Assembly (NCBI GenBank): GCA_903871775.1
Contig: CAIQIA010000006.1
Coordinates: 1 to 64,000 of the forward strand
Direction: 5' to 3'
Length of the DNA stretch: 64,000 nt
From: an uncultured cyanobacterium
Lineage (GTDB): Bacteria > Cyanobacteriota > Cyanobacteriia > PCC-6307 > Cyanobiaceae
Shown: positions 16,429 to 24,848 of the stretch, one piece after another
How positions within the stretch are numbered: the first letter of the stretch is position 1
Layout: each line of letters begins with the position of its first letter
Notes under the pieces: generated by a model
What the model saw: only the letters and a program-made list of their open reading frames with translations
Databases searched by the model: none
What the model was told of the DNA's origin: nothing
Position numbers and translations under genes: made by a program

Positions 16429-17469
16429 ATGCGTTGGCGACTGCAGCGGTTCACCCTCACCAAGGCTGTGCCCCTCACCATCAGCCGGGGCACCACCGCG
16501 GCGGTGGAGCACCTGTGCCTCACGGTCGACCACGACGGCTGCAGCGGCCGCGGCGAGACCGGTGGCTTCGATACGGGCCTGCGGGCGTTCGACACCGGAG
16601 CCCTGGAGGCCGAGCTGCGGGAGCTGTTGCCCTCCCTTGAGCCGCTCGATCCGATCTGCCGCCAGGCCATCGAGCCGCTGTTGGCCTCCCTGAGCCCCCC
16701 GGCCCGCTGTGCCGTGGATCTGGCCCTGCACGACTGGTGGGGCCAGCGGCTGGGGCGACCGCTGTGGCAGCTCTGGGGGCTCGACCGCCAGGCCTGTGTG
16801 CCCACCAGCGTCACCCTGGGCCTGGCCAGCCCCGAGGCGGTGGTTGACCGGCTGCACCGCTGGCGACAGCTGCTGCCGGCCTCCCGCGTCAAGCTCAAGC
16901 TGGGCAGCCCCGCGGGCCTCGACCATGACCGGGCCCTGGTGGAGGCGTTGCGCCCCCGGCTCGAGGGGGCCGAACTGCAGGTGGATGCCAACGGCGGCTG
17001 GACGCCGGACCAGGCCCGGCGCATGCTCCCCTGGCTGGCTGAACGCGAGGTGGTGCTGGTGGAACAGCCCCTGGCGGCCGCCCCCGACGACGGCGCCGCC
17101 TTCGCCGACCTGCGTGGCCGGGCCCCCCTGGCTCTGGTGGCCGACGAGAGCTGCTGGGATCTGCCCGACCTGCTGCGCCTGGCCCCCCACGTGGATGGGA
17201 TCAACATCAAGCTGCTCAAGGCGGGGGGACTCACGGAAGCCCTGCTGATGGCCCGCACGGCCCGGCGCCTGGGGCTGCGGCTGATGCTCGGCTGCTACTC
17301 AGACAGTGCCCTGCTCAACGGGGCGGCGGCCCAGTTGCTGCCGCTGGTGCACTGGCCTGACCTCGACAGCCACCTCAACCTGCTGGACGATCCCTTCCGG
17401 GGTCCACTGCAGGATGGTGATCTGCTCAGGCCCGGCGACGGGCCAGGACTGGGGGTGGAGCCATGCTGA
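16429..17469 (+). CDS. dgcA: enolase-superfamily epimerase; likely N-acyl-D-glutamate racemase DgcA
   Basis: A 346-residue member of the muconate-lactonizing/dipeptide-epimerase group. The two acid-base lysines are visible as K-x-K at Lys155/Lys157 and Lys261 (INIKLLKAGG), and the Mg ligands as Asp186 (DANGGW), Glu212 (EQPL) and Asp239 (DES). This layout fits 1,1-proton transfer on an amino acid derivative. By similarity alone it would be called L-Ala-D/L-Glu epimerase. The overlapping DUF1611 gene points instead to the DgcA-DgcN pair, where it racemises N-acetyl-D-glutamate. The catalytic residues are seen; the substrate is inferred. Confidence 0.8.
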   Translation: MRWRLQRFTLTKAVPLTISRGTTAAVEHLCLTVDHDGCSGRGETGGFDTGLRAFDTGALEAELRELLPSLEPLDPICRQAIEPLLASLSPPARCAVDLALHDWWGQRLGRPLWQLWGLDRQACVPTSVTLGLASPEAVVDRLHRWRQLLPASRVKLKLGSPAGLDHDRALVEALRPRLEGAELQVDANGGWTPDQARRMLPWLAEREVVLVEQPLAAAPDDGAAFADLRGRAPLALVADESCWDLPDLLRLAPHVDGINIKLLKAGGLTEALLMARTARRLGLRLMLGCYSDSALLNGAAAQLLPLVHWPDLDSHLNLLDDPFRGPLQDGDLLRPGDGPGLGVEPC

Positions 17470-18524
17470 CCGCCGATGCTCCGGTGCTGCTTCTGCAGCA
17501 CGACGGCCTGGAGGATCTCTCCGGCAAGACCGGTCTTGCCCTGCTGCGCTACCGCCAGGGCCCGGTGGTGGCGGTGCTGGATCCGGGGAGGGCCGGGGCC
17601 GACCTGCCGACCCTGACCGGCATCCCCCGGTCGGTGCCGGTGGTGGCGTCGGTGGCCGAGGCGATGCTCTATGGCCCCCAGGTGGCCGTGGTGGGGCTGG
17701 CGCCCTCCGGCGGGCGGTTGCCGCCGCCGGTGCGGGAGGCCGTGGCGGAGGCCCTGCGGGCGGGGCTCAGCGTCGCCAGCGGCCTGCACACCCGCCTGGG
17801 GGAGGATCCCGACCTGGCGGCGCTGGTCCAACCGGGCCGCTGGATCTGGGATCTGCGCCGGGAGCCCGGGCAGCTCACGGTCGCCACGGGGTTGGCGGCG
17901 GCCCTGCCCTGCCGTCGCATTCTTGCCCTCGGCAGCGACATGTCGGTGGGGAAGATGAGCGTCGCCCTCGAGCTCACGGCGGCGGCCCGGGGGCGGGGCC
18001 TTGATGCCCGTTTCGTCGGCACGGGCCAGGCCGGCATCCTCATTGCCGGTGGCGGGGTGGCCCTCGATGCCGTGCGGGTCGACTACGCCGCCGGAGCCGT
18101 CGAGCAGGCGGTGCGCTCCACCGCTGAGGGGGCCGGCCCCGAAGCGCTGGTGTTCGTCGAGGGGCAGGGGTCGTTCTGCCATCCCGGCTCCACCGCCAGC
18201 CTGCCCCTGCTGCGGGGCAGCCAGCCCACGGATCTGCTGCTGGTCCATCGGGCCGGTCAGGCCACCATCCGCAATCTGCCCCAGGTGCCCCTGCCGCCCC
18301 TGCCCCAGCTGATCGCCGTCTGCGAGGCCATGGCGGCCCTTGCCCTGCCCGTGGGGGGCCGTCCGGCTCGCGTGCGGGCGGTGGCCCTCAACACCGCCCA
18401 CCTCGACGACAGCGCGGCGCAGGCGGCCATCGAGACCGTCGCCCGTGACACAGGTCTTCCCTGTGCGGATGCGGTGCGCGGAGGAGCAGAAGCCCTGCTG
18501 GATGCTCTGCTGGGACCAGGATGA
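17463..18524 (+). CDS. dgcN: DUF1611 protein; likely D-glutamate N-acetyltransferase DgcN
   Basis: A 353-residue DUF1611 protein overlapping the previous gene by 7 bases. The C-terminal half has a P-loop-like motif at about residue 157 (GSDMSVGKMS), then RFVGTGQAGILIAGGG and VEGQGSFCHPG, which are typical of the family. In marine bacteria DgcN N-acylates D-glutamate, DgcA racemises the product, and a deacylase yields L-glutamate. No deacylase is seen nearby. The gene ends one base before the opposing tRNA-His. Confidence 0.8.
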   Translation: MLTADAPVLLLQHDGLEDLSGKTGLALLRYRQGPVVAVLDPGRAGADLPTLTGIPRSVPVVASVAEAMLYGPQVAVVGLAPSGGRLPPPVREAVAEALRAGLSVASGLHTRLGEDPDLAALVQPGRWIWDLRREPGQLTVATGLAAALPCRRILALGSDMSVGKMSVALELTAAARGRGLDARFVGTGQAGILIAGGGVALDAVRVDYAAGAVEQAVRSTAEGAGPEALVFVEGQGSFCHPGSTASLPLLRGSQPTDLLLVHRAGQATIRNLPQVPLPPLPQLIAVCEAMAALALPVGGRPARVRAVALNTAHLDDSAAQAAIETVARDTGLPCADAVRGGAEALLDALLGPG

Positions 18525-20962: not shown

Positions 20963-22210
20963 TCAGTCTGGGACCTCGCCAGGCGTCAGGACCCAGGGCT
21001 CCGGCGGATCGAGCTGCTCCCAGAGGCTGCCGAGCAGGTGCAGCGAGCCGGTGACCACCGGCAGCGGGCCGGGGCCCACCAGCTGGGCGAGGCCCTGGGC
21101 GGCGCTGTCTGCCTGGTGCAGCTGCCCTGCCAGGGAAGGGACCGCAGCCGCCAGGGCCGTCGCGGTCCAGCAGTCATGGTCCTCGAAGGACAGGATCCAG
21201 GCTTGGTCGCCCGGGCGCAGCAGCGCCGTCAGCATCGACGGGGCATCTTTATGGCGCTGGATGCCGATCAACCAGCGGCGCGGGCCCCCCGGAGCCAGCC
21301 CATCCAGTTCCTGGCGCAGGGCCTGGGCGGCGGGCGGGTTGTGGGCGCCGTCCACGAGCAACGGCTGCCCCCGCCAGCTGCGCCGCTCCAGCCGCCCGGG
21401 CCAGCGGGCCGCCGCCAGGCCCCGGGCGATGGCGTCAGCGGGCAGGGGCCAGCCCCGTTCCGCCAGGGCCTCGGCCATGCCGACCGCCACGGCGCCGTTG
21501 ACCCGCTGCAGCTGGCCGGGCAGGCCCAGGGGCACCGTGGCCGGCAGAGGATCCACCCAACGCAGCTCGGTGCCCCTGGCGATGGCCTCTGCCTCGAGCC
21601 TGCGGCCCACCTCGGGGGCCTGGGGGCCGCTGATCGCCACGCTTCCAGGGCTGAAGATCCCGGCTTTCTCGGCGGCGATCGAGGCCAGGTCGTGGCCGAG
21701 CCATTCGCAATGGTCCAGGCCGATGGTCGCCAGGCCCAGCACCGTCCGCTGGGGATGGGTGGTGGTGGCGTCCAGCCGACCGCCGAGGCCCACCTCCAGG
21801 ACGGCGATCGGCACCGCCGCCGCCGCGAAATGACTGAAGGCCGCGCCGGTGAGCTGCTCGAAGGTGGTGAGCCCATGGGCCTCGGCCTGGGGCTGCCAAG
21901 CCAGCAACCGTGCGCGCAGCTCGTCGGGGGGGATCCAGCGGCCGGCGACCCGGATCCGTTCGCACCAGCTGCGCAGGTGGGGGGAGCGATACACCCCCGC
22001 CGACATCCCGGCCGCCGCCAGGATCGCCTCCAGCATCGCCACGATGGAGCCCTTGCCGTTGGTGCCGGCCACCTGCACCGCCTCGAAGCAGCGCTCGGGA
22101 TGGCCCATGGCCGCCAGCCCCTGCTGCAGCCGGTCCAGCCGCAGGTCGACACCGCGGCTGCGAAAGGGTTCCAGCAGGTCGGTCAGATCGACCGGCTCGG
22201 GAAGGTTCAT
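20963..22210 (-). CDS. folC: folylpolyglutamate / dihydrofolate synthase
   Basis: A 415-residue Mur-ligase-superfamily enzyme that adds glutamate to dihydropteroate and to folates. The P-loop is VAGTNGKGSIVAM, and LEVGLGGRLDATT plus GLDHCEWLG follow as in the family; the C-terminal domain opens with LVDGAHNPPA. The start codon overlaps the argD stop as ATGA, so the two should be co-translated. Confidence 0.94.
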   Translation of the reverse strand: MNLPEPVDLTDLLEPFRSRGVDLRLDRLQQGLAAMGHPERCFEAVQVAGTNGKGSIVAMLEAILAAAGMSAGVYRSPHLRSWCERIRVAGRWIPPDELRARLLAWQPQAEAHGLTTFEQLTGAAFSHFAAAAVPIAVLEVGLGGRLDATTTHPQRTVLGLATIGLDHCEWLGHDLASIAAEKAGIFSPGSVAISGPQAPEVGRRLEAEAIARGTELRWVDPLPATVPLGLPGQLQRVNGAVAVGMAEALAERGWPLPADAIARGLAAARWPGRLERRSWRGQPLLVDGAHNPPAAQALRQELDGLAPGGPRRWLIGIQRHKDAPSMLTALLRPGDQAWILSFEDHDCWTATALAAAVPSLAGQLHQADSAAQGLAQLVGPGPLPVVTGSLHLLGSLWEQLDPPEPWVLTPGEVPD

Positions 22211-23400
22211 GCCAGCCGGGCCAGGCTGCGGTCGAGGCGCTCCAGCAGCTGACGCACCTCGCGACGGCGGATCACCAGGGGGGGCACGAACCGCACCACC
22301 TGGGGGCCCGCCGGCACCACCAGCAGCCCCTCGGCCATGGCTTCGCGCACCAGATCGGCGGCGGTGACCGAGCCCTCCCGCAGCAGCAGGCCCTGGATCA
22401 ATCCCCAGCCCCTGACGCCGCTCAGCAGGCCTGGATGGCGGGCCACCCGCTGCAGCAGCCCCTCCCGCAGCTGTTCGCCCCGGGCCTGCACATGGGCCAG
22501 CAGCTCCCGGCGTTCCAGTTCGGCGGCCACGGTGAGCGCCGCCCGACAGGCGAAGGGGTTGCCGCCGAAGGTGCTGGCGTGGTCACCGGGTTCGAACACC
22601 GCGGCCCCGGTCTTCACCGCCAGGGCGCCGATGGCATGGCCACCGCCGAGGCCCTTGGCCAGGGTGATGGCGTCGGGTTCGATCCCGAGGTGTTCGTAGC
22701 CCCAGAGGCGACCGGTGCGTCCCATCCCCACCTGCACCTCGTCGAGGATCAGCAGCAGGCCCCGCCCATCGCAGAGCTGCCGCAGACCCTGGAAGAACGC
22801 GGGATCCCCGGGCACCACCCCCCCCTCCCCCTGCAGGGGCTCGATCAGCACCGCCACCGCCCGGCCGTCGTGGCGGTCGATGGCGGCCCGGGCGTCGTCC
22901 AGGTCGTTGTACTGGAAGTGATCAAAGCCCTCGGGCAGCGGCTCGAAGCCACGGTGGTACTTTGCCTGGCCGGTGGCGGTCACGGCGGCGAGGGTGCGGC
23001 CATGGAAGCTGGCGCGGGCCGACAGCACCACCGGCCGGTCGACACCGCGACGGCTGTGGCCGTATTTGCGCGCCAGCTTGATGGCGGCTTCGTTGGCCTC
23101 GGCGCCGGAGTTGCAGAAGAAGACCTGGTCGGTGCAGCTGCGGTCGGTGATCCAGCGGGCCAGCTCTTCCTGTTCCTGGATGCGGTACAGGTTCGAGACA
23201 TGCTGCAGCCGGCGGAGCTGCCGGGTCAGGGCGCGTCGCAGCACCCGATCGCTGTGGCCCAGGGTGCAGGTGGCGATGCCAGCGACGCAGTCGAGATGAC
23301 GGCGTCCCTGGTCATCCTCCACCCAGCAGCCCGACCCCTTGACGAGGGTGAGGGGCAGGCGTCCGTAGGTGGCCATCACGGCCGAAGGGGCAGCGCTCAC
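22207..23400 (-). CDS. argD: acetylornithine aminotransferase
   Basis: A 397-residue class III PLP aminotransferase of arginine synthesis. FFCNSGAEANEAAIKLAR, the PLP-ring residue in LILDEVQVGMGRTG, and the Schiff-base lysine in ITLAKGLGGG are present. The open frame extends to 23478, but that would run through the tRNA-Leu gene; the GTG at 23400 (SAAPSAVMATYGR) gives a normal N-terminus. ATG 23376 is another candidate. Overlaps folC by 4 bases. Confidence 0.94.
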   Translation of the reverse strand: MSAAPSAVMATYGRLPLTLVKGSGCWVEDDQGRRHLDCVAGIATCTLGHSDRVLRRALTRQLRRLQHVSNLYRIQEQEELARWITDRSCTDQVFFCNSGAEANEAAIKLARKYGHSRRGVDRPVVLSARASFHGRTLAAVTATGQAKYHRGFEPLPEGFDHFQYNDLDDARAAIDRHDGRAVAVLIEPLQGEGGVVPGDPAFFQGLRQLCDGRGLLLILDEVQVGMGRTGRLWGYEHLGIEPDAITLAKGLGGGHAIGALAVKTGAAVFEPGDHASTFGGNPFACRAALTVAAELERRELLAHVQARGEQLREGLLQRVARHPGLLSGVRGWGLIQGLLLREGSVTAADLVREAMAEGLLVVPAGPQVVRFVPPLVIRRREVRQLLERLDRSLARLA

Positions 23401-23430
23401 GGGCAGTCGTGCTCTGGGCTGCCTCCACCG

Positions 23431-23436
23431 TAAAAT
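23431..23436 (+). promoter_or_regulatory. -10 box of tRNA-Leu (CAA)
   Basis: TAAAAT predicts transcription from about 23443, three bases before the mature tRNA 5' end. Confidence 0.45.
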
Positions 23437-23445
23437 CGAGGGATC

Positions 23446-23527
23446 GGGGGCATGGCGGAATTGGTAGACGCAGCGCACTCAAAATGCGCCGGCTTCGGTC
23501 TTGTCGGTTCGAGTCCGACTGCCCCCA
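23446..23527 (+). tRNA. trnL: tRNA-Leu (CAA)
   Basis: Acceptor GGGGGCA pairs with TGCCCCC. The anticodon stem GCGCA/TGCGC encloses CTCAAAA with anticodon CAA. A long variable arm and TTCGAGTCC T-loop mark a class II leucine tRNA. CCA is not encoded. Confidence 0.97.
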
Positions 23528-23546
23528 TCAATTACAGGAAGCGGTC

Positions 23547-24848
23547 TCAGGCGTGTCTGCGCACGATCGAGGCACCCACGGCATTGAGCTTGCCCTCGAG
23601 GTTGTCGTAGCCCCGGTCCAGGTGCTGGAGCCCCTGCACCTGGGTGGTGCCGTCGGCCGCCAGGCCCGCCAGCACCATCGCCGCCGCGGCCCGCAGGTCG
23701 CTGCCGGTGACCGGTGCGCCGCTGAGCTGGCTCACCCCCTCGACGAAGGCCGTGTTGCCCTGGGTGCGGATGGCTGCGCCCATGCGCTGCAGTTCAGCCA
23801 CGTGCTGCAGACGGTTCTCGAAGATGGCTTCGGTGATGACGCTGGTGCCGCTGGCGGTGGCCAGCAGGCTCATGAAGGGGGCCTGCAGATCGGTGGGGAA
23901 GCCGGGGAAAGGCTGGGTGCGCAGGTCGACCGCCCGGATGGTCTCGGCGCTGATGGTCAGCCCCACGCCATCGGGAACGATGCGGCAGCCGGCTTCTTCA
24001 AGCTTGCTGATGACGGCCCCGAGATGCTCGGGAATGACGGGGGCCACCCGCAGGGTGGAGCGGGTGATGGCGGCGGCCAGGAGCAGGGTGCCGGCTTCGA
24101 TCCGGTCGGGAATCACCTGGTAGTCGGCCCCATGGAGACGGGGCATGCCGACGATGGTGATGGTCGGTGTGCCGGCGCCGCGCACCTTGCCGCCCATGGC
24201 GATGAGCAGACCGGCCAGGTCAGCCACCTCGGGCTCCTGGGCGGCGTTGTCGATGATGGTCTCGCCATCGGCGAGGGCGGCGGCCATCATCAGCGTCTCG
24301 GTGGCGCCGACGCTGGGACAGTCGAGATGGATGCGGCCGCCGGTCAGCCGGTGACCACGGCCCGGCACGACGGCAGAGACCACGCCGTGCTCGATGGACA
24401 CCTGGGCGCCGAGGGCCTTGAGACCCTTGACGTGCTCCACCACGGGCCGGGCACCGATCTTGCAGCCCCCGGGCAGGGGCACCCGGGCGACGCCGAGACG
24501 GGCCAGCAGGGGGCCGATGCAGAAGAAGCTCGCCCTCAGGCTGTTGACGAGGTCGTACGGCGGAGACGACTGGCTCAGGCCGGAGGCCTGCAGCTCGAGG
24601 CTGTCGCCGCTGCGCTCGCTGCGGACACCGAGGGCGCCCAGGATCTCAGCCATCCCATTGATGTCCGAGAGACCCGGCATGTTGCGCAGCCGCAGCCGAT
24701 CTTCTGTGAGCAGCGAGGCCGCCATCAGCACCAGAGCCGAATTCTTGGCGCCGCTGACCTTGACCTCACCCTCCAGGCGCCGCCCCCCCCGCACATCGAG
24801 CTGGGGAATCAGGGCGGAGGTCGTCGGCGTGGAGAGGAGATTGGTCAT
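23547..24848 (-). CDS. murA: UDP-N-acetylglucosamine 1-carboxyvinyltransferase
   Basis: First committed step of peptidoglycan synthesis: enolpyruvyl transfer from PEP to UDP-GlcNAc. The 433-residue protein has the inside-out alpha/beta barrel repeats, with [10 protein letters not shown] near the N-terminus and the active-site loop [10 protein letters not shown] with Cys129. That cysteine is the fosfomycin target and is kept. It is convergent with tRNA-Leu (CAA), 19 bases away. Confidence 0.96.

Follow-up and report, generated by a model that had tools for sequence, protein, structure and literature searches.

The closest described relatives of the gene pair analysed here are found in the DgcN-DgcA pathway, which has been described as a route from D-glutamate to L-glutamate (PMC10845958) and as an irreversible pathway for acidic D-amino acids as well as their amides (PMC12363236). 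An earlier note on the genome of an uncultured cyanobacterium had read two overlapping genes, one for an enolase-superfamily racemase and one for a DUF1611 protein, as such a pair and had connected a recycling of D-glutamate with the many wall genes of the stretch. The source genome consists of 2.57 Mb in 27 contigs and is, among named organisms, most closely related to Cyanobium and Synechococcus; the stretch analysed, called the window in the following, comprises 64,000 nucleotides of one contig. The reported overlap of seven bases and the intact catalytic residues were confirmed, and the relevant features are located as follows:

16429..17469, + strand: gene for an enolase-superfamily racemase/epimerase of 346 aa, ATG start (Pfam MR_MLE_N and MR_MLE_C)
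16891..16899, + strand: catalytic K155-x-K157 of the racemase, without variation in any cyanobacterial-type, other-phyla or DgcA-type row of the comparison
16984..16995, + strand: metal ligand D186 and subgroup marker G189 of the racemase (D-A-N-G; D-A-N-E in DgcA), from the alignment
17062..17064, + strand: metal ligand E212 of the racemase, from the alignment
17143..17145, + strand: metal ligand D239 of the racemase, from the alignment
17209..17211, + strand: catalytic K261 of the racemase, from the alignment
17359..17379, + strand: D311-L-D313 followed by S314-H315-L-N317 of the racemase (G-P-L-L in DgcA), from the alignment
17463..17469, + strand: overlap ATGCTGA of 7 nt between the racemase stop and the DUF1611 start, from the sequence
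17463..18524, + strand: gene for a DUF1611 protein of 353 aa, ATG start (Pfam DUF1611_N and DUF1611_C)
17931..17957, + strand: P-loop G157-x-D159-x3-G163-K164-M165 of the DUF1611 protein, kept in DgcN-type and window-type proteins

The overlap of the racemase stop with the DUF1611 start suggests that the two genes are translationally coupled. They lie side by side as in the DgcN-DgcA operon, but in reversed order: the dgcN gene came first in all 29 alphaproteobacterial loci that had both genes, whereas the racemase gene is first in the window.

The racemase and the DUF1611 protein are a real functional unit that is inherited together across the cyanobacteria. Counting strong matches to either protein in 194 genomes of the cyanobacterial phylum, we found DUF1611 in 55 and the racemase in 56 of them; 55 genomes contained both genes and 138 neither, so 193 of the 194 had both or neither (Fisher 5e-48, a statistic that ignores phylogeny). 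Because members with both genes occur next to members without either inside the same families and genera (groups f1 including genus g5, f6 including genus g48, f7, f9 and f11), the match does not reflect one old inheritance. Adjacency elsewhere in cyanobacteria, which the earlier note had proposed to check, was evident in 50 of the 55 pair-bearing genomes, where both genes are on the same strand and at most 2.5 kb apart, while the other five (G011, G033, G045, G060, G185) have retained both genes at distant positions or on separate contigs. The distant group f35 includes three genomes with the inverted gene order. The cyanobacterial host, which the earlier note had stressed, is nothing exceptional: many members of the phylum have the pair, and the structure of an Anabaena DUF1611 protein (2obn) dates from 2007. 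DUF1611 is also encoded in Synechococcus elongatus. In only one surveyed genome of the phylum, G053, does the racemase have a fairly strong counterpart (39% identity, L161:4029-5096) in the absence of DUF1611.

Adjacent pairs were also present in Planctomycetota, Armatimonadota, Myxococcota, Flavobacteriaceae, Rhodobacteraceae, and other Pseudomonadota. The distances within the two protein families were correlated with r = 0.93 over 64 loci, with DgcN and DgcA left out and with species history contributing to the value, and the deep topologies of the racemase and DUF1611 trees agree. The rows from Pirellulaceae were placed inside or beside the cyanobacterial rows in both trees, which fits a joint transfer of the pair.

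The DUF1611 protein matched its Pfam family with 220 bits (cut-off 25), and its best NCBIfam model was that of DgcN (NF041892). The 223 bits reached there compare with an equivalog cut-off of 480 and with 551–560 bits for canonical DgcN proteins, and a tree calculated by a quick method placed the protein in a separate clade (SH-aLRT 99) which excludes the DgcN clade (100). The AF2 model of the protein (pLDDT 94.2) exhibits the two-domain DUF1611 fold of the DgcN structure 7xrj, to which it was aligned over 329 residues at 2.6 Å with 35% identity (VIA Z 38.3), and it matches 2g0t from Thermotoga over nearly the full length (Z 37.8). The C-terminal part of the model resembles the P-loop domains of CobB-type cobyrinic acid a,c-diamide synthase, MinD, and dethiobiotin synthetase (Z around 13). 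The predicted structural match, together with 45 positions common to window-type and DgcN-type proteins that include the P-loop and an EGQGS motif, indicates that both have the same protein core. Ava_3511 of Anabaena, known from the structural-genomics entry 2obn, is likewise cyanobacterial and 54% identical, matches with Z 48.0 over 346 residues, and shows no evident difference from the window protein.

The best NCBIfam model for the racemase was correspondingly DgcA (NF042940), with 171 bits against an equivalog cut-off of 400 and 487–511 bits for canonical DgcA proteins, and the quick-method tree again resulted in a separate clade (SH-aLRT 99) excluding the DgcA clade (100). We did not accept the best match to DgcA as proof of this identity because the Bacteroides dipeptide epimerase 3iji, which is also the best PDB match of the window racemase, likewise scores best with DgcA (215 bits, vs. 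152 bits with the L-Ala-D/L-Glu epimerase model), and because 1jpd, the L-Ala-D/L-Glu epimerase of E. coli, was placed within the DgcA clade of the same quick-method tree, apart from the window racemase. The retained catalytic set of the enolase superfamily (K155-x-K157, D186, E212, D239, K261) and the motif D311-x-D313 are not specific for DgcA either, since dipeptide epimerases contain them as well. Other residues separated the two groups in a comparison of 34 DgcA-type rows with 121 window-type rows, of which 111 were cyanobacterial (some genomes represented twice) and 10 came from other phyla. All 34 DgcA-type rows have Glu at residue 189 and Asp at residue 263, where the window-type rows have Gly (120 of 121) and Met, Leu or Val, respectively, and the window-type residues Ser-His at 314–315 and Asn at 317 correspond to Gly/Ala, Pro, and mostly Leu in DgcA-type rows. 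At residue 290, only the cyanobacterial rows deviate from DgcA, with Tyr instead of the Met that DgcA-type rows and those from other phyla have in common.

Taken as a module, the window pair shares with DgcN-DgcA two homologous and mostly adjacent genes, the folds, the catalytic residues, and the P-loop motif. It differs in that its proteins are only about 27–37% identical, reach less than half of both equivalog cut-offs, and form separate clades, that the substrate-side residues of the racemase are different, and that the locus is without an adjoining D-amino-acid transaminase or transporter. Judged from these comparisons, the pair forms a separate branch and likely catalyses a similar reaction. 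The earlier note was right about the partnership and probably about the general chemistry but overstated the identity with DgcA-DgcN and the role in wall recycling. Its warning that a plain label as L-Ala-D/L-Glu epimerase would conceal the partnership with DUF1611 was well founded.

Enzymes of the enolase superfamily abstract an alpha-proton from their substrates and stabilise the resulting enolate by a metal. In the mechanism we favour, the DUF1611 protein would acylate, and probably acetylate, a D-amino acid at its alpha-amine; the most likely substrate is D-glutamate or a closely related compound. With K157 and K261 as catalytic residues, the enolase-type enzyme would racemise the N-acylated product at the alpha carbon via a metal-bound enolate. 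Removal of the acyl group from the resulting N-acyl-L compound could follow; N-acetyl-L-glutamate, if formed, might alternatively enter arginine synthesis, for which ArgJ is encoded in the source genome together with MurI, one M20 peptidase, and a separate MenC-like gene. We rate the chances as about even that the module as a whole, as a separate subgroup with its own pocket residues, serves the N-acylation and racemisation of D-glutamate or a close relative. D-glutamate itself is the leading substrate candidate by homology, and we regard this assignment as plausible, if somewhat below an even chance. MurI, which already links D- and L-glutamate, could do so without the pair, and this counts against the proposed module. 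In two related Rhodobacteraceae, a gene for an amide-hydrolysing protein of the histone-deacetylase fold is located directly upstream of the pair (L143:3901-4980 and L145:3826-4980), preceded in L143 by genes for an ABC transporter, a class III aminotransferase, and a BKACE protein; such a neighbour, confined to this one lineage, would suit an N-acyl intermediate.

The main rival explanation assumes that the racemase is a dipeptide epimerase of the L-Ala-D/L-Glu type acting on murein peptides cut by NlpC/P60 peptidases, with the DUF1611 protein as an accessory enzyme modifying the dipeptide or its D-Glu end. Its best PDB matches, 3iji and 3jva, are consistent with this role, as is residue 263, which is Met or Leu as in these two structures and Asp in DgcA, and cyanobacteria do carry NlpC/P60 and LdcA peptidases. 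The enolase fold, the K-x-K/D/E/D/K set, and the D-x-D motif of the last barrel strand (D311-L-D313) are further common traits, but we rejected the latter as proof because it is equally present in DgcA and does not discriminate. Against this assignment, the racemase reached only 112 and 81 bits with the epimerase models PRK15129 and A_G_epim_Thtga (cut-offs 343 and 500), and it deviates from the known epimerases by Gly189 instead of Gln or Glu, by Ser-His after the D-x-D motif, and by its tie to DUF1611. Epimerisation of dipeptides as the sole role would also leave the near-absence of the racemase without DUF1611 unexplained. The distribution of the peptidases points in the same direction: both NlpC/P60 and S66 (LdcA) peptidases are common across the phylum irrespective of the pair, six genomes with the pair are without NlpC/P60 (G054, G070, G087, G121, G159, G177), and many genomes with NlpC/P60 are without the pair. 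We consequently dropped co-occurrence as an argument for a link to peptidoglycan recycling. Overall, we consider the dipeptide epimerase with an accessory enzyme rather unlikely.

Outside Cyanobium/Synechococcus, the gene neighbourhood does not support the link to wall genes proposed in the earlier note. The adjoining genes on the opposite strand, which we take from their sequences to be miaB, ddl, ftsQ and ftsZ, have counterparts matching ddl/ftsQ/ftsZ beside the pair only in Cyanobium/Synechococcus loci, while filamentous cyanobacteria have different neighbours, e.g., a NUDIX gene. A search for a conserved neighbouring pathway across the cyanobacterial loci yielded only lineage-specific recurrent neighbours. 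Downstream of the pair follow genes that are presumably folC-, argD- and murA-like; the latter two lie on the opposite strand at 22207-24848 of the window, 4–6 kb from the pair, and a few Cyanobium/Synechococcus loci likewise have an argD-like gene close to the pair.

A second rival retains the logic of acylation and racemisation but assumes another amino acid, such as D-Asp, D-Gln, D-Ala, or a D-diamino or non-protein amino acid, with the specificities of DUF1611 proteins spread over several racemase partners. The fixed signature residues of the window type are in line with this assumption, as is the metagenome-assembled genome of the alphaproteobacterium Natronohydrobacter (G195), which contains a canonical dgcN-dgcA pair (560 and 511 bits) besides a window-type pair (221 and 193 bits; loci L169, L178). 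The coexistence of both types in one genome hints at different substrates, and the two are perhaps not redundant. Moreover, the DUF1611 family serves more than one kind of racemase. Three cyanobacterial genomes (G070, G105, G175) contain a second strong and separate DUF1611 copy, each beside a gene for a PLP-type racemase, which belongs to Ala_racemase_N in all three cases and has ornithine racemase as its best NCBIfam model in both of the two scored; a plasmid of Vibrio parahaemolyticus shows the same arrangement with an ornithine-racemase-like PLP gene. These loci (L159:3024-5231, L160:2983-5213 and L158:4245-5312 from cyanobacteria, L070:3650-5964 from the Vibrio plasmid) resemble the window in a DUF1611 gene adjoining an amino-acid racemase gene, but the racemase fold is unrelated and their DUF1611 proteins score 152–158 bits with the DgcN model. 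DUF1611 is therefore paired with two unrelated racemase folds in the few loci compared. An apparent frame of 24637 aa at the second copy of G175 was discarded as an artefact of masked bases, since this locus (L158) contains 6000 N and its DUF1611 stretch is masked. Since there is no direct sign of an alternative substrate and D-glutamate is the named substrate of the characterised relative, we judge a different amino acid to be rather improbable.

The homology to the DgcN-DgcA racemase and N-acetyltransferase, including the match to 7xrj, and the pairing itself would also agree with a canonical DgcA-DgcN pair that has merely diverged in sequence, but this is very improbable given the missed cut-offs, the separate clades, the opposite gene order, the differing signature residues on the substrate side, and the presence of both types in Natronohydrobacter. 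An o-succinylbenzoate synthase (MenC) of phylloquinone synthesis can practically be dismissed, because despite the common superfamily and weak matches to MenC models the racemase reaches at most 54.6 bits against cut-offs of at least 130, and the genome contains a better candidate elsewhere, at C7 (134 bits vs. 30 for the window racemase).

If the favoured acylation and racemisation chemistry holds, many cyanobacteria would possess a PLP-free racemisation of amino acids via N-acyl intermediates, by which D-amino acids might feed the N-acetylglutamate pool for arginine. It would also assign a function to a DUF whose structure has been solved from a cyanobacterium (2obn) and correct the annotation of the racemases as 'L-Ala-D/L-Glu epimerase' or 'muconate cycloisomerase'. 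Because of its strict co-inheritance, the pair is an easy target for a two-gene knock-out in a model cyanobacterium.

More tentatively, DUF1611 may be a general family of racemase partners, each branch acylating or otherwise activating its own D-amino acid for or after the adjacent racemase, and the branch of the window, present in cyanobacteria, Planctomycetota, Armatimonadota, some Pseudomonadota and Bacteroidota, would then act on a substrate other than that of DgcN-DgcA; we regard this as possible rather than probable. In a 10-Mb deltaproteobacterial metagenome-assembled genome, a second DUF1611 gene overlaps a gene of the PALP family (threonine/cysteine-synthase-like; L179:2-2133), which looks like a different pathway, and another DUF1611 gene adjoins an SMP-30 gene. 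On a plasmid of Haladaptatus, a DUF1611 gene is located between two enolase-type 'dipeptide epimerase' genes of differing sequence (L068:2501-5862).
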